Source of the DNA: Ancylomarina euxina | GTDB lineage: Bacteria > Bacteroidota > Bacteroidia > Bacteroidales > Marinifilaceae | DNA length: 64,000 nt | NCBI RefSeq assembly: GCF_003863355.1 | Contig: NZ_QQWG01000010.1 | Coordinates: forward strand, 62,001-126,000 | Reading direction: 5' to 3' | Part shown: piece after piece, positions 54,996 through 64,000 of the stretch | How positions within the stretch are numbered: position 1 is the stretch's first letter | Layout of the letters: every line of letters starts with the position of its first letter | Position numbers and translations under genes: made by a program | The notes under the pieces: model-generated | The model's database searches: none | What the model was told of the DNA's origin: nothing | What the model saw: the letters and a program-made list of their open reading frames with translations, nothing else

Positions 54996-55021
54996 TTTCT
55001 TTAGGATTTTGTGCTAAAGAT

Positions 55022-55510
55022 TTATTTTTTGTCCTGTTTAGGGCTCTCTTTATACGACCAGTTTAACTCTATTTTTAAAAGCTCTAAAACATTAAAAACG
55101 TGAGGGCATATTTCATAGTTTTGAATCGTACTGTAAGTCTTCTTTATAAAATGATCTTCGCCCAGATATGGATACAATCGACATTCCTCAGGACGGTTTA
55201 GATAGTCAGTACATTTCTTGTCTTTATGATGCATGCAAGGTATACTCTTAAGATACATAAAGGCCTCAATGTTTTCGTCTGCAACAAATTTGCTAAGTTC
55301 CTTGCGCGAGGCTATGGGTCTAAGGTTTTGACAGCAATTTCCACAATCACGACAGTCAATTTCACTCATAACCTCTTGGTAAAGTCGATGAACAATTTGA
55401 TCTATCTTTTCAGAATCCTGATCTTTAAGATAGCTATTGAAAGAGATGTTTTCAGCTTCTTTTTGTTTAGCGATTTGCTCTATTTTTTTTAGGTCTATTT
55501 CTAATTTCAT
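55022..55510 (-). CDS. YkgJ-family cysteine cluster protein
   Basis: A 162-residue protein with the family's Cys/Asp pattern: 'CRDCGNCCQNL' (four Cys in residues 57-65, counting by motif), 'IPCMHHKDKKCTDYLNRPEEC' (three Cys, shown in part) and 'LYPY'. The cysteines are thought to bind zinc or iron. The N-terminal 50 residues form a charged helix. Its role is unknown. It is divergent from the hydrogenase-like genes at 56006, but separated by 495 bases and by two-hairpin element B. Confidence 0.85.
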   Translation of the reverse strand: MKLEIDLKKIEQIAKQKEAENISFNSYLKDQDSEKIDQIVHRLYQEVMSEIDCRDCGNCCQNLRPIASRKELSKFVADENIEAFMYLKSIPCMHHKDKKCTDYLNRPEECRLYPYLGEDHFIKKTYSTIQNYEICPHVFNVLELLKIELNWSYKESPKQDKK

Positions 55511-55548
55511 CGTCGTTATCGTTTGAGCAAGGCTGCTGCACAGTCTGT

Positions 55549-55645
55549 GTTATAACATCAATATCGATGTTATTTTTCTAGATCAATGAAAAAAGGTGTT
55601 TTATCACCCCCAATATGGCGGGATAACAACACCTTTTCATATAAA
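55549..55645. repeat. Two-hairpin element, copy B
   Basis: Palindrome ATAACATC-AATATC-GATGTTAT (55552-55573), then a hairpin from AAAAGGTGTTTTATC (55591) to GATAACAACACCTTTT (55637). It matches copy A (48445-48540) in both parts and in spacing, and lies 39 bases upstream of the YkgJ gene start on the minus strand. Confidence 0.65.
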
Positions 55646-56005
55646 CCCAGGACTTAATCGTCTGATGAATTTATATCATTGAGGCGCAAATGTAGTCATT
55701 GTAATACGAAGAATGCTTAATACGATATTTTAATTTTATTTTAAATATATGTAAAAAGCGTGTGGGTTAATATGGCTATGTGTTTCTCCGACTTTTGAAA
55801 CGTCTAACAAGAGATCTCTCATATTTAGATTTATTTGGGTTTTGGATAGATGCTTCGACTCGTTCGGGATGAGGGTTTTATGAGGCTTATTTAAACCCCA
55901 TCTGAATAGATGGGATGTGTTTTAGAATATCTGAATATGGATGTAAAAAATAACATAAATACGGAGCTTTGATATGAAATTTATCACAAGTAAGATCTGT
56001 AGCAA
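55646..56005 (+). promoter_or_regulatory. Intergenic region upstream of the [FeFe]-hydrogenase-like locus
   Basis: No ORF is supported. GGCTTATTTAAAC at 55884-55896 recurs at 57802-57814, just upstream of the first phosphatase gene. A CCCATC-tgaata-GATGGG hairpin sits at about 55897-55914. No exact TTG-N19-TAnnTTTG promoter is seen. Confidence 0.35.
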
Positions 56006-57724
56006 ATGGATATTTTTAAACCCGTATATACCGAACAAAACGATTGTCAGGATTGTTATAAATGCATACGTGAATGCCAGTTAAAAGCCATTAAGGTGAT
56101 TAATAATGCAGCGCAAATTTTGCATGAGGATTGTATTTACTGTGGAATTTGCACGCAAGTTTGCCCCGTAAAAGCTAAGAAGGTTCGCAACGATTTAACC
56201 CGGGTTAAATCCCTATTGAAGCGAAACAATAAGGTGATCGTTTCGTTGGCTCCCTCATATATGTCTGAATTCCCAAACTTGAAAGATGAGCAGCTGGTAG
56301 CCGCCATCAAGGAATTGGGCTTCGCTCATGTTTCTGAAACAGCCCTGGGAGCCGAATTGGTATCACAAAAGGTGAATACTTTTCTGGAGGAAAAACAGTC
56401 GGGCATTTATATTTCATCAGCTTGTCCATCGGTGGTTGAAATGATTTGCAAGCATTTTCCTCAATACAAGGATCATATCACACCTTTTTTATCACCCCTT
56501 TTAACGCATTGTAAAATGTTGAAACAGGAGTATGGTGAGGATTACAAGATTGTATTTATAGGGCCGTGTATTGCGAAAAAAGCTGAAAGTGATGCTTTTG
56601 GCGATTTATTGGAAGCTTCTTTGTCCTTTAAGGATTTGGCCGAATGGTTCAATGAGGAAGGTCTGGAGCCAGACTTGTTTTATGAGTCGGATACAGAATC
56701 GGGTTTTGTGCCTCGTCGTGCCGGAAAAGGGAGTTTATATCCTATAGATGGCGGGATGATTGCGGGAATTAAAAATAATGCCAGCACGACTGATGCTGTT
56801 TTTATGACCTTTTCAGGTATCAGCAGTATCAACGATGTGTTAAAGGATTTGAATTATTATAGGAAACCTGGTTTGTTGTTTCTGGAACTTTTGGCCTGTG
56901 AGGGGGGATGTGTGAATGGCCCGGGAACAAAAAAAACTTACTCCCGAGCGCTTAAACGTTTAGAAATCATCAATAGAAGTGAGGAGGAAGTTGTTGGGTA
57001 TCAGGCTGACTTTTCTATTCTTCGCAACTTCGACAATATTGATGTCGCACACAAACCAGAACATCCAGAGACTAAAATTAAGGAAGCTCTGAATATGATT
57101 GGGAAATACTCCGATAAGGATGAGATCAATTGTGGAGGCTGTGGTTATAATTCATGTCGGGAGTTTGCTAAGGCTTACCTGGAAGATAAATCGGAACCCA
57201 ACATGTGTGTGTCATATATGCGAAAGATTGCTCACGATAAATCAACGGCTCTTCTAGGAAAAATACCTTCAGGTGTCTTAATTGTGAATGAAGATTTGAA
57301 GGTGGTTGAAGCCAATCAGAGTTTTGCCCGAATTATGGGAGAGGAGATGGAACAACTGTTTGATACTATTCCGGGCTTGAAAGATGCCGATTTGAAGAAA
57401 ATAGCGCCTTTCTACAAATTATTTTCATCCGTATTATCAACCGGCGAAGATAATTTAGAACGAGATTTCCGTTTGGGTAATAAAATGTTGCATTTGAGCC
57501 TTTTTACGATTCAGAGGAATAAGATTGTTGGCGCTATCTTAAGAGATATGTCTCAACCTTTTATTCAGCAAGAAGAAGTCATCAATCGGGCCAAAGCGGT
57601 TAATCAAAAGAACCTTGAAACAGTGCAGAAAATTGCATATCTGCTGGGGGAAAATGCCTCAGAAACAGAGGATATGCTGAACTCTATTGTTGAGTTTTAT
57701 ACACTGGCTGAGGAAAAGAATTAG
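56006..57724 (+). CDS. Sensory-type [FeFe]-hydrogenase (HydS-like), first copy
   Basis: A 572-residue multidomain protein. In order: a 2[4Fe-4S] ferredoxin domain (C14, C17, C20, C24 and C43, C46, C49, C53); an H-cluster domain (residues ~70-350); an added 4Fe-4S domain (C376, C379, C384, C401); a PAS domain (about 412-530); and a helical tail. H-cluster motifs: 'SSACPSVV' (C140), 'GPCIAKKAE' (C188) and 'LLACEGGCVNGPG' (C298, C302). The proton-relay Cys of catalytic enzymes (TSCCP) is Ala here, as in sensory group C enzymes. With the PAS domain and phosphatase neighbour this fits a phosphatase-linked H2/redox sensor. No signal peptide, so cytoplasmic. Confidence 0.85.
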   Translation: MDIFKPVYTEQNDCQDCYKCIRECQLKAIKVINNAAQILHEDCIYCGICTQVCPVKAKKVRNDLTRVKSLLKRNNKVIVSLAPSYMSEFPNLKDEQLVAAIKELGFAHVSETALGAELVSQKVNTFLEEKQSGIYISSACPSVVEMICKHFPQYKDHITPFLSPLLTHCKMLKQEYGEDYKIVFIGPCIAKKAESDAFGDLLEASLSFKDLAEWFNEEGLEPDLFYESDTESGFVPRRAGKGSLYPIDGGMIAGIKNNASTTDAVFMTFSGISSINDVLKDLNYYRKPGLLFLELLACEGGCVNGPGTKKTYSRALKRLEIINRSEEEVVGYQADFSILRNFDNIDVAHKPEHPETKIKEALNMIGKYSDKDEINCGGCGYNSCREFAKAYLEDKSEPNMCVSYMRKIAHDKSTALLGKIPSGVLIVNEDLKVVEANQSFARIMGEEMEQLFDTIPGLKDADLKKIAPFYKLFSSVLSTGEDNLERDFRLGNKMLHLSLFTIQRNKIVGAILRDMSQPFIQQEEVINRAKAVNQKNLETVQKIAYLLGENASETEDMLNSIVEFYTLAEEKN

Positions 57725-57754
57725 TTGATGAGATGATTTGTTGAAAAGTTAACG

Positions 57755-57926
57755 CACTTCGGGGTTCTTGATTTGATTTATCATACCCCGCATTTCATGC
57801 AGGCTTATTTAAACTTAATCCCCTCGGGATTTATATATCTTACTTAAACCACAAAGTGGTTTAATTTTAATTACCACGGGAGAAGCCCGTGGTGTCTACT
57901 GAATCTTACAGGAGAACCCCGAAGTG
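57755..57926. repeat. Hairpin cluster enclosed by a 13-bp inverted repeat
   Basis: CACTTCGGGGTTC (57755-57767) and GAACCCCGAAGTG (57914-57926) form a perfect long-range inverted repeat. Inside are TTAAACCAC-aaa-GTGGTTTAA (57844-57864) and ACCACGGG-agaag-CCCGTGGT (57873-57893). The element fills the 252-base gap between the sensor and phosphatase genes. It could be an RNA structure in the transcript or an inserted repeat. Confidence 0.55.
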
Positions 57927-57976
57927 GGTTCAACCTATTGAAACAGAATTATAAAATTAATAGCTGAAATTAAACG

Positions 57977-59161
57977 ATGCAATCCGATTATTATATAGAA
58001 GTTGAGTGCCTACAGAAGAATCCTGGGAAACAGGTGATTTGTGGGGATGTGTTTATGTCGGAGAAAATTAAGGAGGAGGGAAGAACGCTTCTGGTGCTTT
58101 CTGATGGATTAGGCAGTGGCGTTAAAGCCAATGTTCTGGCAACTTTAACCGCATCAATGGTTTTAAACTATATGCGGGTGAATAAGGATATCCGTAAAGC
58201 AGCTGAGGTAATCATGCAAACCCTACCCATTTGCAGCAAGCGTAAAGCCAGTTATTCAACTTTTACTATTGTTGATATTGAGTGTGATGGAGAAACTCGT
58301 ATTATCCGTTACGATAGTCCGGAGTGTTTGGTCTTGCGTGGTCTGGAATTATTTCAGCCCAAATGCGAAGCCTTGAGCATTGAGGGAGCTAATAATTTAG
58401 GGAAGATCTTATATTCTTATCGTTTTAAAGCTGAGAAAGAAGATCGTATTGTATTTTGTTCCGATGGCGTGACCAATTCGGGTATGGGCACAAAGCGTTT
58501 CCCTTTTGGATGGGGAATTGAGAATTTGAATGAATTTATAAGAGGCATGATCAGACGTCAGCCTTATCTATCGGCTAAGCAATTGGGGCGAGCCGTGGTG
58601 GATAGAGCGGCTGCCAATTATGGCGATGTGCCTAAAGATGATACTTCTTGTGCTGTTGTTTATTTGCGTGAACCAAGAGATCTCTTACTTTGCACAGGAC
58701 CTCCGTACAGCAAATCAAAAGATGCTCAACTTGCCCGTCAGGTAAGCGAATTTAAGGGGAAGAAGATAGCCTGTGGTGGCACTACAGCTTGTATCCTATC
58801 CAGAGAATTTGCTGAAGAGTTGAAAATAAGCATGACCATTACAGATCCGGAATTGCCTCCTATTTCATTTTTAAAAGGAGTCGATCTACTCACAGAAGGC
58901 ATATTAACTTTGGGTAAAGTTCAACGCATCCTAAAGGACTACAATCAGAATACGGTTTTAAGACAGGGGCCTGCCGATCAGATTGTGAAGCTTCTTTTGG
59001 AGAGTGATAGAATTGAGATTATCAATGGGACTAAGATTAATGAGGCACATCAGGATCCTAATTTGCCAGTTGAGCTTGAAATCCGACGAACCGTTGTGAA
59101 GAACATCGCTGCGCTTTTGGAGGAAAAGTTTTTGAAAGATGTAGATCTTAGTTATATTTAA
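57977..59161 (+). CDS. PP2C/SpoIIE-family phosphatase with extra C-terminal domain, first copy
   Basis: A 394-residue protein. Residues ~20-230 form a PP2C/SpoIIE phosphatase: 'GDVF' (D24), 'LSDGLGSGVKANVLA' (D43), 'FCSDGVTNSGMG' (D163) and 'KDDTSCAVVYL' (D221-D222), the metal-binding acid set. The C-terminal ~160 residues form a further domain with 'KGKKIACGGTTACI' and a distal 'HQDPNLPVELEIRRTVVK' that I cannot assign. It probably removes phosphate from Ser/Thr of an anti-sigma-factor antagonist or similar switch. It follows the hydrogenase-like sensor, so hydrogen or redox input is inferred. It lacks a kinase or PAS part of its own. Confidence 0.8.
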   Translation: MQSDYYIEVECLQKNPGKQVICGDVFMSEKIKEEGRTLLVLSDGLGSGVKANVLATLTASMVLNYMRVNKDIRKAAEVIMQTLPICSKRKASYSTFTIVDIECDGETRIIRYDSPECLVLRGLELFQPKCEALSIEGANNLGKILYSYRFKAEKEDRIVFCSDGVTNSGMGTKRFPFGWGIENLNEFIRGMIRRQPYLSAKQLGRAVVDRAAANYGDVPKDDTSCAVVYLREPRDLLLCTGPPYSKSKDAQLARQVSEFKGKKIACGGTTACILSREFAEELKISMTITDPELPPISFLKGVDLLTEGILTLGKVQRILKDYNQNTVLRQGPADQIVKLLLESDRIEIINGTKINEAHQDPNLPVELEIRRTVVKNIAALLEEKFLKDVDLSYI

Positions 59162-59315
59162 AAGGTTTAAAAAGTCAAAAGATTGAAAGGTTTAAGTAGA
59201 TATACTTAAAGGATAGGTCATCTGAGCTGGAAGGTCGAATCGTTTACAATCGAAAAAACCGACAACTGATAACCGGTTGATCATAAACAATAAACAAAAC
59301 AAATAAATAATAACC

Positions 59316-59567
59316 ATGAGTGATAAAAAGGATGTGACCATCTGTTTGGGAAGTTCTTGCTTTTCAAGAGGCAATGGTAAAACCTTACAGGCTGTTAAAG
59401 AATTCTTTGATAAGAATAATTTAAATAATTCAGTTTTTTTTCATGGTGAACTTTGTACAGGAAACTGTTCCAAAGGACCAATTTTAAAGATAGAAAAGGA
59501 CTTGTACCAGGAGGTTGATTCGGAAGGTGCGCTTGATATTCTTAAAAAGGTATTCGAAGACGCCTGA
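59316..59567 (+). CDS. Thioredoxin-like [2Fe-2S] ferredoxin (NuoE/HoxE C-terminal type)
   Basis: An 83-residue protein with the thioredoxin-fold [2Fe-2S] pattern: 'ICLGSSCFSRG' (two Cys, residues 10 and 15 by motif) and 'GELCTGNCSKGP' (two Cys, near residues 46-50). These small ferredoxins accompany NuoE/HoxE-type and [FeFe]-hydrogenase systems and pass electrons between the cluster enzymes. Its location between the two sensor-phosphatase pairs makes it a likely electron donor or acceptor for the sensors. It begins 155 bases after the first phosphatase and 52 bases before the second sensor. Confidence 0.85.
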   Translation: MSDKKDVTICLGSSCFSRGNGKTLQAVKEFFDKNNLNNSVFFHGELCTGNCSKGPILKIEKDLYQEVDSEGALDILKKVFEDA

Positions 59568-59618
59568 GAATATAATATGTGTCTAGCCTTTTAATCTTCA
59601 CCCTAAATTCGCAGCCCC

Positions 59619-61457
59619 ATGCAACTGATTACCACAAATAAGGATAAATGTAACCTGAGTTATACCTGTATACGAGTTTGTCCAGCCAAAGCCATTAAAA
59701 TTAAAGATAATTACGCTCATATTATTGCCAACCGTTGCATTGGTTGTGGTAATTGTGTGACTATGTGTGCTCAGAATGCGATTGAATATCGTAACGAGGA
59801 AGATTACGTGATGGAACTTCTTAAGCGCGACGAAAGAGTGGTGGCTATCTGTGATCCGAGTATTTCTGGAGAGTTCGACGATATCAATGATTATCGAAAC
59901 TTTGTTGGTATGATTCGTGAATTGGGTTTCGATTATGTGGTAGAGGCAGCATTTGGAGCTGATTTAGTGGCTTACAAGTATAAAGAGCTTTTTAATAATT
60001 TTCACGGCAAATATTATCTGTCAACCAAATGCCCAGCTTTGGTGAACCATGTTGAGCGATATTATCCTGATTTGGTGGATAATCTGGCACCTATTGTTAA
60101 TCCGATTATCGCCATGGCGAAGGTTGTGCGCGAAAAGTACGGAAAAGATGTGAAGATCGTTTCGCTCTCACCTTGTGTTGCCAGTAAGGATGATGTGAAG
60201 TTTTTCAATAAGAGCGATGGAGAAATTCAGGCTGTTCTTAGTTTTGTTGAGTTGAGAAAGCTCTTTAAAGAAAAAGGGGTGACGGAAACCCGGGTAGAAT
60301 TTTCGGAATTCGATCCGCCATTTGCCCGAATAGGGGGCTTATTCCCCGTAAGTCATGGCTTGTTTCAGGCTGCTGAGATTGATAACAGCATGTTGCGTGG
60401 TAATATTATTAGCACCGAAGGTCGCAATAATTTTTTGCGTTCTCTTGAAGAATTTCAACGAAACAGTGACCTGAACCAGCATCTCGATCTTTTTTATTGT
60501 GACGGTTGTATTATGGGACATGGTACCTCTAAAGGTGGCCGAAAGTTCTCTCGTCGTTCTCAGGTTGTGCGATATGTTCGCAAACGCCTGAAGACCTTTG
60601 ATGAGCTGCAATGGCAAAAGGAAATCGATGCCTATCAGCATATCGATTTAACCCGAAAATTCTCAATCAAAGATAATCGTTTGCCTATCCCTACAGAGAA
60701 AGAAGTGCAGGAAGTGCTTGATAAGATGGGTAAGGGGAAAATTGAAGATCAGCTTGGTTGTGGTTCATGTGGTTACGAAACCTGTAGAAAATTTGCTGAG
60801 GCTACCGTTCAGGGGATTGCAAAGTTTGAGCAATGCTCTTCGGTAACGATCAAGAATATGAATGCCTATATCAAGAAATTGGGCGAGACCAATGAGAAGT
60901 TAATTCAGACAGAAGTCGCTCTTAAGGAATCGGAAGCTCAAGCCAAAGAGGAACATCGAATGGCAGTTGAAGCCAGTGAAACAACTTCGGCTATGCTTCA
61001 GAAACTCCCAACTGGCGTAGTCATTGTTGATGAGGATCTCAAAATAATTGAATCGAATAATAGCTTTGTTAATCTATTAGGCGAAGAAACAAAGCTGTTG
61101 AATGAGATTATTCCAGGTTTGGTTGATGCCGATTTAACTAAGGTGATTCCTTTTTACCGTTTGTTTTCAACCGTATTAATGAATGGTGAAGATATACTGA
61201 AAAAGGATGTGCATTTTGGGAGTCGATTGTTTAATGTCTCAGTTTTTACAATTAAAAAGAATAAGGTTGTTGGGGGGATCATTCGGGATTTGTATGCGCC
61301 AGAGGTTAGAACCGAAGAGGTGATTGGTCGTGCTCGCGATGTGATTAAGGAGAATCTGCAAACGGTGCAGCAAATTGCCTTCTTATTGGGCGAATCGGCT
61401 TCCAAGACCGAAAAAATTCTGACCTCGATCATTAAATCCCATTCGAAGGAAGAGTAA
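59619..61457 (+). CDS. Sensory-type [FeFe]-hydrogenase (HydS-like), second, diverged copy
   Basis: A 612-residue paralogue of the sensor at 56006 with the same domain order. Differences: in the first ferredoxin site the second Cys is S14 ('DKCNLSYTCIRVC': C11, S14, C17, C21), while the second site is complete (C40, C43, C46, C50). The H-cluster motifs read 'STKCPALV' (C138), 'SPCVASKDD' (C186) and 'FYCDGCIMGHG' (C294, C297), so the third motif is C-x2-C, one residue shorter than in copy 1 and in catalytic enzymes. The later 4Fe-4S domain is intact (C381, C384, C389, C406). A coiled segment (about 420-455) precedes the PAS domain. Hydrogenase chemistry is doubtful; sensing or electron relay is more likely. 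Confidence 0.82.
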   Translation: MQLITTNKDKCNLSYTCIRVCPAKAIKIKDNYAHIIANRCIGCGNCVTMCAQNAIEYRNEEDYVMELLKRDERVVAICDPSISGEFDDINDYRNFVGMIRELGFDYVVEAAFGADLVAYKYKELFNNFHGKYYLSTKCPALVNHVERYYPDLVDNLAPIVNPIIAMAKVVREKYGKDVKIVSLSPCVASKDDVKFFNKSDGEIQAVLSFVELRKLFKEKGVTETRVEFSEFDPPFARIGGLFPVSHGLFQAAEIDNSMLRGNIISTEGRNNFLRSLEEFQRNSDLNQHLDLFYCDGCIMGHGTSKGGRKFSRRSQVVRYVRKRLKTFDELQWQKEIDAYQHIDLTRKFSIKDNRLPIPTEKEVQEVLDKMGKGKIEDQLGCGSCGYETCRKFAEATVQGIAKFEQCSSVTIKNMNAYIKKLGETNEKLIQTEVALKESEAQAKEEHRMAVEASETTSAMLQKLPTGVVIVDEDLKIIESNNSFVNLLGEETKLLNEIIPGLVDADLTKVIPFYRLFSTVLMNGEDILKKDVHFGSRLFNVSVFTIKKNKVVGGIIRDLYAPEVRTEEVIGRARDVIKENLQTVQQIAFLLGESASKTEKILTSIIKSHSKEE

Positions 61458-61552
61458 GCAGTTCTGATTTTGTTTGGTGATTATAATTAGTGATTTAAAG
61501 CTTGAGCAGCCAGAGGCTTTGCATGCTTTATTGGATAAGTTAAAACATTACC

Positions 61553-62737
61553 ATGGAAGAAAAATTTCATTTAGATATTGATTGCCCACAGCTGTTTCAT
61601 CATGGCGAATTGATTTGTGGAGACGTGTTTTTGTCTCGACGTATTAAGGAAGAGAATCGAACGATTGTTATTTTGAGCGATGGAATGGGCAGTGGTGTTA
61701 AGGCTAATGTTTTGGCTACACTTACGGCATCCATGGCCATAAATTTCACCATTGAGCATAAGAATTTTAAAACCATTGCCGATATCATCATGAACACGCT
61801 GCCTGTATGTAGTGTGCGCAAGGTAAGCTATTCAACTTTTACTATTGTCGATATTGAATACGATGGGACTACTCGTATTATGGAGTTCGATAATCCAGAC
61901 TGTGTGATTATGCGAGGCGCTTCTTTCTTCGACCCGGGGTGGGAGAATATAGAGCTGGATAGTGAAGAGAATAAAGGAAAAATCCTGAGAGCCTGTCAGT
62001 TTAATGCGCGTAAAGAGGATCGCATCCTATTTTGGTCTGATGGTATTATGCAATCGGGTATGGGAAGTCCAGCCTATCCCTTTGGTTGGGGGCTCGATAA
62101 TGTGGTTGAATTTGTCAAGCAAAACATCAAAGCCTCGCCTTATATTTCTTCGAATGCACTAGGTAAAAAAATTGTGAAACGTGCTTCCAGAAACGATCAG
62201 GATGAACCTAAGGATGATACCAGTGCGGGTGTTGTTTATTTTAGAGAGCCTAGAAAATTATTGCTTTGCACAGGACCTCCATTCGAAATGGATAAGGACT
62301 CTGAGTTAGCTATGAGAATCTATCATTTTAAAGGGAAGAAAATCATTTGTGGAGGATCTACAGCTGAAATCGTTTCTCGTGAATTGGGACTGAAATTTGC
62401 TCCAGGTATGACAATGACTGATCCTGAATTACCACCGGTTGCTTATATGGAAGGCATTAATTTGGTTACGGAAGGGATTCTAACCATTGGTAAAGTTGCG
62501 CGTATTCTTGAAGACTACGATAATAATTATCAATTGGGTGAAGGTCCTGCCGATCAGATTGTACATTATTTGTTGCAAAGCGATCAGATCTCAATAATCA
62601 ACGGAACACGTATCAATTTAGCACATCAGGATCCAAATTTGCCTGTTGAGTTAGAAATACGCCGTACAGTTGTGAAGCGAGTTGTTCGTCTACTCGAAGA
62701 AAAATTTCTGAAGGATGTGAATTTGAGTTTTTTGTAA
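61553..62737 (+). CDS. PP2C/SpoIIE-family phosphatase with extra C-terminal domain, second copy
   Basis: A 394-residue paralogue of the phosphatase at 57977, identical in length and domain layout. The metal-binding set is conserved: 'ICGDVFLS' (D24), 'LSDGMGSGVK' (D43), 'FWSDGIMQSGMG' and 'PKDDTSAGVVYF'. The C-terminal domain keeps 'FKGKKIICGGSTAEIVSRE' and 'AHQDPNLPVELEIRRTVVK', so this unassigned region is under strong constraint. It lies 95 bases after the second sensor gene, so the second sensor and phosphatase form a second matched pair. Its likely substrate is a phosphorylated switch protein not present in the window. Confidence 0.8.
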   Translation: MEEKFHLDIDCPQLFHHGELICGDVFLSRRIKEENRTIVILSDGMGSGVKANVLATLTASMAINFTIEHKNFKTIADIIMNTLPVCSVRKVSYSTFTIVDIEYDGTTRIMEFDNPDCVIMRGASFFDPGWENIELDSEENKGKILRACQFNARKEDRILFWSDGIMQSGMGSPAYPFGWGLDNVVEFVKQNIKASPYISSNALGKKIVKRASRNDQDEPKDDTSAGVVYFREPRKLLLCTGPPFEMDKDSELAMRIYHFKGKKIICGGSTAEIVSRELGLKFAPGMTMTDPELPPVAYMEGINLVTEGILTIGKVARILEDYDNNYQLGEGPADQIVHYLLQSDQISIINGTRINLAHQDPNLPVELEIRRTVVKRVVRLLEEKFLKDVNLSFL

Positions 62738-62825
62738 GGTCTTTAAAGTCTTAAAAGCCAAAAGGTATAAAGGTCAACCGTTTTTAAGTTATTTCCTTTT
62801 GAACTTTAATCTTTATCCTTATGCA

Positions 62826-64000
62826 CTAGTTGAGTTCGATTAAGGTGATTTCTGGTGGCATACCAATTCTGCCTGGAAAACCAATATAACCAAAACCACG
62901 ATTCACATATAAAAACTGCTTCCCTTTATTGTACAAGCCTCCCCAACGTGGATATTTATATTGGACCGGGCTCCATTTGATACCTGCACGTTCAATTCCA
63001 AACTGCATACCATGTGTATGACCAGCAAAAGTAAGGTCTATATCTGTGCCTAAAACTTTTTCATCCCAATGTGATGGATCATGACTCATAAGCAATTTAA
63101 AGCTTAAATCTTCATTGTCTTTCATCGCTGCATCCAAATCTCCGTGCTGAGGGAAAGGCGGTTTTCCCCAATTCTCAACACCGATAAGTGCAATTTCATC
63201 ATCTTCAATTTTAAGACGTTCTGTTTCATTCAATAACAGCTTAAAACCCGCTTCCTGATGAAAATCTTTAATTCCTTTTAAGTTTTTAGCTTTTGCTTCA
63301 GCTGATGGCCAGTGTGAATAATCGCCATAATCATGATTGCCCAATATGGAATATTTTCCCATCGAAGCATTCATTTTGCTAAGCACTGGAGCCCAGCCTT
63401 CGGTTTCTTCAGCAAAATTATTGACTAAGTCGCCTGTAAACAGGATGATATCTGGCTTTTGTTCATTGATCAGCTCAACGGCCTTATCGATCTTTTCGAA
63501 GTTTTTATTAAAGCTGCCTAAATGCATATCCGATATTTGGACGATTCTAAGTCCTTGAAAAGCTTTAGGTAAATTTGGGAAGCTTAAGCTTTCCTGCATA
63601 ATTCGAAACTTGAACTTCCCTTTTGTAACCCCATAAAGAATTGAGGCAAAGGGGATGGCAGCAAGCATTAAGCCCATTTGATATAAAAATTCGGAACGCT
63701 CCATTTTTTTTTTTGATTTTGATTCAAACTTATTTTCCTTCTTCACACTTGCAAGAGCTCCTATGAGCCAACTTACAATCTTCTGCACATCTTTAAGCAA
63801 TACGAAAAGAATCAGAACAAACTTGGGTATATAAAATAGGGCAAAAGCACCTATCAGATAACTAAAATACACGTAGGCATCAGCTCTTTGTACATGTTCA
63901 ATTCTAAAGAAAAATAGAACAAATGCAGCAAACATGAATACCGATATCAACCAGTAGAATAGCTTTAAAGCCTTTCTTATATATAGGTTTTGGATTTTAT
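62826..64000 (-). CDS. Membrane-anchored metallophosphoesterase, 5' end beyond the window
   Basis: The frame is open to base 64000, so the start is uncertain; a TTG at 63950 and ATG at 63935 are internal candidates, and upstream codons remain hydrophobic. The visible part has N-terminal membrane helices (two within the first ~60 residues), then a linker, then a calcineurin-like phosphoesterase: 'RIVQISDMHLGS' (D, H), 'ILFTGDLVNN' (D), 'ILGNHDYGD' (N, H), 'LLMSHDPSHWD' (H) and 'FAGHTHGMQFG' (H). The full metal-binding set is present. YkuE/YaeI-like enzymes of this type hydrolyse phosphodiesters at the membrane, often UDP-sugar or lipid intermediates. The exact substrate is unknown. Confidence 0.85.
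   Translation of the reverse strand, partial: KIQNLYIRKALKLFYWLISVFMFAAFVLFFFRIEHVQRADAYVYFSYLIGAFALFYIPKFVLILFVLLKDVQKIVSWLIGALASVKKENKFESKSKKKMERSEFLYQMGLMLAAIPFASILYGVTKGKFKFRIMQESLSFPNLPKAFQGLRIVQISDMHLGSFNKNFEKIDKAVELINEQKPDIILFTGDLVNNFAEETEGWAPVLSKMNASMGKYSILGNHDYGDYSHWPSAEAKAKNLKGIKDFHQEAGFKLLLNETERLKIEDDEIALIGVENWGKPPFPQHGDLDAAMKDNEDLSFKLLMSHDPSHWDEKVLGTDIDLTFAGHTHGMQFGIERAGIKWSPVQYKYPRWGGLYNKGKQFLYVNRGFGYIGFPGRIGMPPEITLIELN

Follow-up and report, generated by a model that had tools for sequence, protein, structure and literature searches.

In HydDB, sensory proteins built on the hydrogenase domain (H-domain) include group C3, termed 'phosphatase-linked (putative)', in which the sensor stands beside a Ser/Thr phosphatase, and group C1, which is histidine kinase-linked (PMC5037454). 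In hfsABCD of Thermoanaerobacterium saccharolyticum, HfsB is a PAS-containing hydrogenase, HfsC a serine phosphatase and HfsD a hydrogenase (PMC11837493, PMC5707799, PMC8924675); strains lacking hfsA or hfsB show higher ethanol yield and higher adhE, and both hfsC and hfsD are required (PMC5707799). HfsD has been placed in group B (PMC8924675), but its group is not beyond question, because it has also been likened to HydA2 of Ruminococcus albus (PMC11837493), itself placed in A1 (PMC6776011). The HydS cluster of R. albus, an H2-responsive cluster of eight genes, combines a group C sensor with a putative Ser/Thr phosphatase and includes a group A1 hydrogenase (PMC6776011). Here we describe a five-gene locus of Ancylomarina euxina in which two such sensor/phosphatase pairs and a ferredoxin are joined; it lies in a stretch of 64,000 nucleotides (nt) analysed as a whole (hereafter the window; contig NZ_QQWG01000010.1, positions 62,001 to 126,000, contig C4 in our numbering).

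The features of the locus, in window coordinates, are as follows.

56006-57724, + strand: sensor 1 (S1), 572 amino acids; two N-terminal [4Fe-4S] motifs, H-domain, Cx2Cx4Cx16C motif, PAS domain, C-terminal tail
57725-57976, no strand: S1-P1 gap, 252 nt; contains a foldback element and lies outside the conserved unit
57977-59161, + strand: phosphatase 1 (P1), 394 amino acids; SpoIIE-type PP2C domain (approximately residues 1-230) and a C-terminal alpha/beta domain of about 160 amino acids
59316-59567, + strand: thioredoxin-like [2Fe-2S] ferredoxin (Fd), 83 amino acids; goes with the Fd-S2-P2 triad
59619-61457, + strand: sensor 2 (S2), 612 amino acids; N-terminal clusters, H-domain, Cx2Cx4Cx16C motif, long helix, PAS-like region
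61553-62737, + strand: phosphatase 2 (P2), 394 amino acids; architecture as P1

Both sensors match Pfam Fe_hyd_lg_C (1.3e-43 for S1, 3.2e-36 for S2) and carry the FeS domain and N-terminal ferredoxin motifs, the phosphatases match SpoIIE/PP2C (3.3e-12 for P1, 1.4e-7 for P2), and the ferredoxin matches the thioredoxin-like [2Fe-2S] family (1.1e-8). An initial annotation, made from the sequence of the window, had listed the same five genes; the list of open reading frames (ORFs) gives them at the same place and with the same lengths, all on the + strand, and the two sensor/phosphatase pairs in series are evident from ORF order and Pfam domains. The locus is confirmed as real and not a product of chance, because relatives match over their full length and the gene order recurs.

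By sequence, S1 and S2 belong to two deep clades whose members have different catalytic neighbours in relatives, so that the two pairs are not copies of a single module. S1-P1 matches the sensor/phosphatase part of group B operons (of the HfsB-HfsC type, judged by arrangement), and Fd-S2-P2 matches the triad of group A loci. We consider it somewhat probable that two different modules of group C3 type have been joined here into one regulatory unit, which would tune hydrogenase and fermentation genes to H2/redox load. Compared with hfs, the window unit contains no catalytic hydrogenase, and a second, different sensor/phosphatase triad is joined on; unlike the R. albus cluster, it has no adjacent hydrogenase.

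The two kinds of module were recognized in a survey of relatives. Of 149 genomes of the order, 55 match a profile of both phosphatases, three with weak scores (21-26 bits). Units were read from 59 stretches of those 55 genomes and from 80 named loci, which are the best 80 of 576 relatives, so that close kin of the window may be missing; each ORF was named after whichever of 17 query proteins, taken from the window and its own genome, scored best against it (phmmer, at least 30 bits). The pair survey comprises 149 sensor/phosphatase pairs, from which repeated phosphatases and PP2C genes lacking a sensor ORF within 900 nt had been dropped. Loci come partly from the same genomes (e.g., Marinifilum contigs) and only identical phosphatases were removed; the relatives are not independent, and the Fisher values obtained (4e-16 and 9e-5) overstate significance.

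In the first kind of unit, Fd-S1-P1 is followed by a group B hydrogenase, and the order S1-P1-group B in these relatives is that of HfsB-HfsC-HfsD, a likeness of arrangement and not of alignment. In the second, Fd-S2-P2 often diverges from a NuoE-HydB-HydA operon that continues with a third sensor (S3), or lies near hydABC. Among unfused pairs with at least 2.2 kb downstream, 28 of the 40 S1 pairs and 0 of the 63 S2 pairs have a group B gene in the next 3 kb; the 28 have the hfs arrangement of adjacent sensor, phosphatase and group B gene, which is absent from the window. Short 'S1' calls of 308-354 amino acids (L090, L138, L154, L162) remain among the 12 S1 pairs that have no group B neighbour. 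Group A genes, conversely, occur in the locus for 45/63 unfused S2 pairs and 7/40 unfused S1 pairs. The ferredoxin, described as dedicated in the initial annotation, does belong to the unit but goes with its second triad: it precedes S2 in 14/14 fused S2 pairs and S1 in 0/13 fused S1 pairs (L180, with an S1-P1 gap of 1068 nt, stands outside the fused S1 count).

Trees of the sensors agree with their neighbourhoods. S1 falls in the group B-linked sensor clade (support 99 in the first tree, 100/100 in a later one) and S2 in the group A-linked clade (100/100), where it forms a group of 11 with L188, L042, L066 and L103 (99/96). A tree uniting fused S1 with fused S2 and its nearest kin was rejected by the approximately unbiased (AU) test (log-likelihood 332 lower, p-AU 2.8e-83; the comparison was set after the first sensor tree had been seen). 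For the sensors, this rejects tandem duplication of the whole module and, together with the different catalytic neighbours, speaks against the initial annotation, which had seen a duplicated module with one diverged sensor.

That one module was duplicated in tandem, with one sensor diverging afterwards, is thus very unlikely, and what speaks for it comes from the phosphatases. P1 and P2 share 58% identity and fused P1 clusters with the phosphatases of the group A side, so that the phosphatases may descend from a duplication even though S1 and S2 differ in clade and in genomic neighbours. The position of P1 is itself not firm. The first phosphatase tree did not place it (82/24), a larger one put fused P1 with the group A-side phosphatases (95/99; 100/99 without the outgroup), nearest to fused P2 and its kin, and the alternative grouping of fused P1 with the group B-linked phosphatases was not rejected (p-AU 0.188). 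These trees favour, but do not prove, a chimaeric pair whose S1 and P1 descend from the two different sides, and a more recent origin may be shared by the phosphatases only. Recent gene conversion between P1 and P2 was considered and rejected: 90-nt DNA windows are 42-78% identical in six loci, with no near-identical tract.

The joined arrangement is conserved in part of the family. A phosphatase match is present in 39 of 56 family genomes; two full-length PP2C genes lie 3.36-3.58 kb apart in 22, from which spacing we infer the joined order S1-P1-Fd-S2-P2 in these 22, and 16 have one copy. The order was established from the individual genes in 12 loci, each of a different genome (the window and 11 others), and also in four Marinifilum loci of named records, partly from the same genomes. 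Eight of the 16 one-copy genomes were fetched, and all read S1-P1-group B. In genome G172 the two phosphatases are on separate contigs, with Fd-S2-P2 and Fd-S1-P1-group B apart, as expected for the unjoined state. On the initial annotation's own test, linkage of the two halves in relatives, they are joined in only one part of one family and stand apart in G172, a member of that family. Flanking genes differ between the window's genus and Marinifilum-like genera, and therefore the five genes are a unit. Among the P1 matches listed (best 80 of 576), the nearest named relatives are Marinifilum species, at 74-75% identity. A group B hydrogenase scores over the cut-off in 22/22 joined-unit genomes, on the same contig but far away in 5 and on another contig in 17. 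Phosphatase-linked and kinase-linked sensory hydrogenases are already named classes (C3 and C1), and the locus is a real, conserved unit. In the available parts of the openly licensed full-text literature, we found no description of a joined two-sensor, two-phosphatase unit, nor of a group A/group B split of two phosphatase-linked sensor clades.

The window's genome (4.40 Mb, 77 contigs, 99.99% complete) contains six Fe_hyd_lg_C genes: two of HydA type (contigs C25 and C9), one of group B (C36), a group D-like gene of 452 amino acids that we call Sx (C25), S1 and S2. On the group A model TIGR02512 (cut-off 405.95) the two sensors score 91.7 and 102.1 bits, and on the group B model TIGR04105 (cut-off 450) 188.9 and 157.3 bits, whereas the genome's own group B gene reaches 518 bits on the latter. 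The sensor tree separates S1, S2 and S3 from the local HydA, group B and Sx rows, and neither S1 nor S2 falls among the local group A rows; the HydDB C3 references stand outside this tree. From these scores, the adjacent Ser/Thr phosphatase genes and the motif set, S1 and S2 look like phosphatase-linked putative sensory [FeFe]-hydrogenases (group C3 of HydDB) and unlike the catalytic enzymes of groups A and B, in agreement with the sensory type assigned in the initial annotation. Relative to C3 as defined in HydDB, the window differs in having two such modules in one unit, and the S2 clade differs in a shortened third loop (L3) and repeated ligand loss.

S1 has the three H-cluster motifs SSACP, GPC and CEGGC (cysteines C140, C188, C298 and C302), with Ala at the proton-relay position, as had been noted initially, Gly at the M353 position and Leu at M497. 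By description, TmHydS of Thermotoga maritima is alike in its relay Ala, its Gly at M353 and its PAS domain, and differs at M497, where it has Ser (PMC10055695, PMC8163306). S2 retains all four H-cluster cysteines, with Lys at the relay position, Ser at M353, Phe at M497 and Ser before the Pro-Cys of the second loop (L2), where S1 has Gly; its L3 is one residue short (CDGC as against CxGGC), and Ser replaces one Cys of its first ferredoxin motif. The Cx2Cx4Cx16C motif, described for groups C and D (PMC8163306), is at C376/379/384/401 in S1 and C381/384/389/406 in S2. A hydroxyl residue before the L2 Pro-Cys marks group D (PMC8163306), a mark that is absent from S1 and present in the window's S2. 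Lack of a PAS domain, another group D feature (M2e, TamHydS), does not hold for S1, and S2 is PAS-like only.

The PAS domain that the initial annotation placed after the H-domain of S1 was recovered: the full-length protein matches PAS_9 and PAS_8 below cut-off, and the C-terminal piece searched alone matches PAS_8 over cut-off. Full-length S2 has no PAS match at E <= 0.001, and its C-terminal piece reaches 20.8 bits on PAS_8 (cut-off 21.8); its PAS-like region is suggested by alignment to S1 and by a mixed strand/helix region (466-557) of an AlphaFold2 model. In this model (mean predicted local distance difference test score, pLDDT, 84.8; lower in the last 50 residues) a long helix (407-461) leads to the PAS-like region, and the hydrogenase part matches solved [FeFe]-hydrogenases. 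That S1 and S2 are catalytic hydrogenases with unusual tails is highly improbable. Both hold all four H-cluster cysteines, as such enzymes would, yet their scores are far under the catalytic cut-offs, the relay Cys is replaced in 33/37 S1 rows and 83/88 S2 rows, and each has a PAS-like tail and a phosphatase partner.

Ligand conservation separates the S2 line from the other sensors. Counts were made on sensors of at least 480 amino acids from L040-L178 and the window, one row per distinct sequence (L179-L198 are outside this alignment, and Sx is represented by only 8 selected rows). All four H-cluster cysteines are kept in 37/37 S1, 13/13 S3 and 8/8 Sx rows, as against 60/83 distinct S2 proteins. 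Of the 23 S2 proteins with loss, three ligands remain in 15, two in one, a single ligand in one and none in six. The six ligand-less proteins retain the full set of eight cysteines that make up the second ferredoxin motif and the C-terminal motif, and each is encoded next to a phosphatase gene. The L3 deletion is found in 79/83 distinct S2 proteins and also in 13/13 S3 rows, so that this deletion cannot by itself be read as cluster loss. When a quick tree of 96 S2 and S3 rows was made with the ligand loops excluded, the minimum number of changes accounting for any S2 ligand loss was seven, with no direction given to the changes. Because of these changes, and because the accessory cysteines and phosphatase are kept, the S2 line appears to have lost its H-cluster site several times while retaining the electron wiring and phosphatase partner. 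No description of this loss was found in the parts of the openly licensed literature available. Doubt about the H-cluster in sensory hydrogenases is not itself new, because hydrogen sensing was already judged unclear where the H-cluster motifs of Hydrogenedentota group C1 were discussed (PMC11406978), and reviews call H2 sensing by group C [FeFe]-hydrogenases putative or theorised (PMC8924675, PMC11376134).

For the window's S2, which keeps all four ligands, H2 binding is doubtful. We tentatively suggest, as a possibility short of probable, that S2-type proteins are H2-blind or H2-blunted 'pseudo-hydrogenase' redox sensors, that the one in the window has been joined to an H2-competent group B-linked sensor, perhaps with related phosphatases, and that one locus thereby compares H2 with ferredoxin/NADH load and controls both hydrogenase types through a common phospho-switch. 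The S2 clade, with four, some or no ligands, is a natural experiment, and a comparison of its members would separate H2 sensing from redox sensing.

The third sensor is of another class. In ten extended loci (L200-L209, from L041, L054, L047, L050, L070, L075, L071, L076, L057 and L045, respectively) S3 has 661-682 amino acids and ends in a histidine kinase; the two S3 proteins tested against Pfam match HisKA and HATPase_c, with no PAS. S3 directly follows HydA, and is itself followed by a receiver-type ORF (10/10), a second receiver/kinase ORF (9/10) and a Rex-like ORF (10/10), as called by eye similarity, with Pfam applied in L201 only. The last ORF of L201 has DNA-binding and CoA-binding domains, a combination that we take to be Rex. 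The relay position is Asp in 12 of 13 aligned S3 rows. With these kinase domains, S3 fits class C1 (histidine kinase-linked), and in these bacteria a kinase-linked sensor and a phosphatase-linked one are often found together in group A loci.

This bears on whether S1 and S2 act as one sensor, a heterodimer formed through the helix and PAS regions that would take H2 input from S1 and redox input from S2 and feed one phosphatase pool. An opposite-strand sensor ORF (S3 by position) is present in 33/37 group A-side loci that have a full divergent HydA and room beyond it, the 13 aligned S3 rows keep all four ligands, and none of the six Fe_hyd_lg_C genes of the window's genome is S3, so that S1 might fill that place; deletions of HfsA and HfsB also share a phenotype (PMC5707799). 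We nevertheless regard the heterodimer as unlikely: S3 is histidine kinase-linked and, with no PAS match, need not work with S2. Moreover, S2 ligand loss is not associated with an S3 neighbour (11/13 vs 22/24, p 0.60), and each window sensor has its own PP2C.

In the preferred reading, two separate modules of a joined unit, S1 would bind H2 at an H-cluster that lacks the usual proton relay, and so report H2/redox state with no fast turnover. S2, for which H2 binding is doubtful, would use its accessory clusters to report how heavily the ferredoxin/NADH pool is loaded with electrons, and the [2Fe-2S] ferredoxin may feed it. In each sensor the signal would start at the C-terminal cluster, run along the helix and the PAS region and reach the adjacent PP2C, which is a separate chain. 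The PP2Cs would set the phosphorylation of a Ser/Thr-phosphorylated regulator, giving the two-channel phosphorylation switch proposed initially, perhaps with cross-talk between the channels. Hydrogenase and fermentation genes would then be tuned to H2/redox load, with one locus serving both hydrogenase types, and the joined locus suggests common control of the group B hydrogenase and the group A enzymes. A group B hydrogenase has been reported to drive H2 production in the human gut (PMC12578642).

The phosphatases resemble partner-switching PP2Cs. RsbP has PAS and PP2C in one chain, and well-studied SpoIIE-type PP2Cs have phosphorylated STAS proteins as substrates. P1 and P2 score 47.2 and 32.1 bits on SpoIIE PF07228 (cut-off 25) and are two of four SpoIIE-type genes in the genome; D24, D43, D163 and D222 are invariant in 48 aligned phosphatases, and some of these we take to bind metal. 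A phosphatase model (pLDDT 88.0) has a PP2C domain and a C-terminal alpha/beta domain. The 50 Foldseek rows listed for it are PP2C-type phosphatases, the P1 model matching the SpoIIE phosphatase domain (5mqh, 5.3e-14) and RsbU-RsbW of Rv1364c (3ke6, 1.1e-11). P1 differs from the known partner-switching enzymes (SpoIIE, RsbU, RsbP, RsbX) in having a C-terminal domain of about 160 amino acids and in having its sensor on a separate polypeptide. This domain (residues ~235-394 of P1 and P2) has no Pfam match and is conserved in aligned family members. In a search for a solved structure of the domain, profile matches covered the PP2C part only, apart from an insignificant match to phosphoheptose isomerase (E 0.36).

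The best candidate partners would be an RsbW-like ATPase and DRTGG proteins beside hydABC on contig C25, where DRTGG, RsbW-like HATPase, Sx, DRTGG, PHP and second HATPase genes precede hydABC (L007 6194-14586). They are named as such because an RsbW-like gene lies 600-1336 nt downstream of P2, on the same strand, in L042, L066 and L103, which form the sister group to the Fd-S2-P2 triads of the family. SDLMSDV of the first DRTGG protein and SDLLSDV of the second are invariant in 10/10 and 12/12 aligned proteins, and may, speculatively, be a phosphorylation site. Elsewhere in the genome, other HATPase_c_2 matches are on C14 and C36 and STAS matches on C6 and C14.

Several observations weigh against a joined regulatory unit acting through such partners. 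Contig C4 has no STAS or HATPase_c_2 match, so that no kinase or antagonist gene accompanies the unit, in contrast to Rsb systems. L188, the closest unjoined Fd-S2-P2 locus, has no RsbW-like gene in 11.3 kb, and in 7 of 10 loci with both, PP2C and RsbW-like genes are on opposite strands, 1.4-7.8 kb apart. Group B hydrogenases often occur without the module, a family phosphatase being adjacent in 8 of 19 genomes of the order with a group B match. S1 and P1 may not be tightly co-expressed in the window, where 252 nt with a strong hairpin separate them. Eight loci carry a family phosphatase with no hydrogenase-like sensor found (L046, L061, L086, L143, L149, L151, L156 and L160, the eight such loci that the look covered), and for this reason the phosphatase can do without such a sensor. 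H2 binding, phosphatase activity and the target of S1, S2, P1 and P2 are themselves predictions from sequence. In L160, the ORF directly upstream of the phosphatase resembles a radical SAM protein by eye.

Such sensorless phosphatases also favour direct action of the phosphatases on metabolic enzymes or hydrogenase subunits in place of a partner-switching regulator, as do the genome's STAS matches, only three in number and none on the window's contig. In the hfs system, adhE expression cannot explain all of the activity change (PMC5707799). Direct action is fairly unlikely all the same, given the RsbW-like ATPase gene that follows P2 in L042, L066 and L103 and the STAS substrates of the well-studied SpoIIE-type enzymes.

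The S1-P1 gap of the window contains an element with 18-nt terminal inverted repeats (57751-57768 / 57913-57930), which forms a strong hairpin (RNA fold z-score -6.2) and has one copy in the genome; it appears to be a foldback element that was inserted there. Fourteen other fused loci have gaps of 3-97 nt, as against the far longer one of L180, and this spot therefore takes insertions. The hairpin as a conserved regulator was rejected, since the gaps of the 14 other loci are too short for it and it is single-copy in the genome. No known structured RNA was matched in 55000-63000 (Rfam, up to E 0.1). A promoter scan was uninformative (26 matches vs a shuffle mean of 21.2), and terminator-like sites number 12 vs 5.6 in shuffles.

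Two surveyed loci are partial parallels to the joined unit: L083 reads S1-P1-Fd-S1-P and then group B, and L163 (1210-13810, Candidatus Riflebacteria) reads NuoE-HydB-HydA-Fd-S1-P1-group B, followed by a second sensor and phosphatase. The window's genome has another HydA-type operon on contig C9 (L008 6329-9970), in which HydB is shorter and a NuoE-like gene is present; HydA has TSCSPG in this operon where that of contig C25 has TSCCPG.

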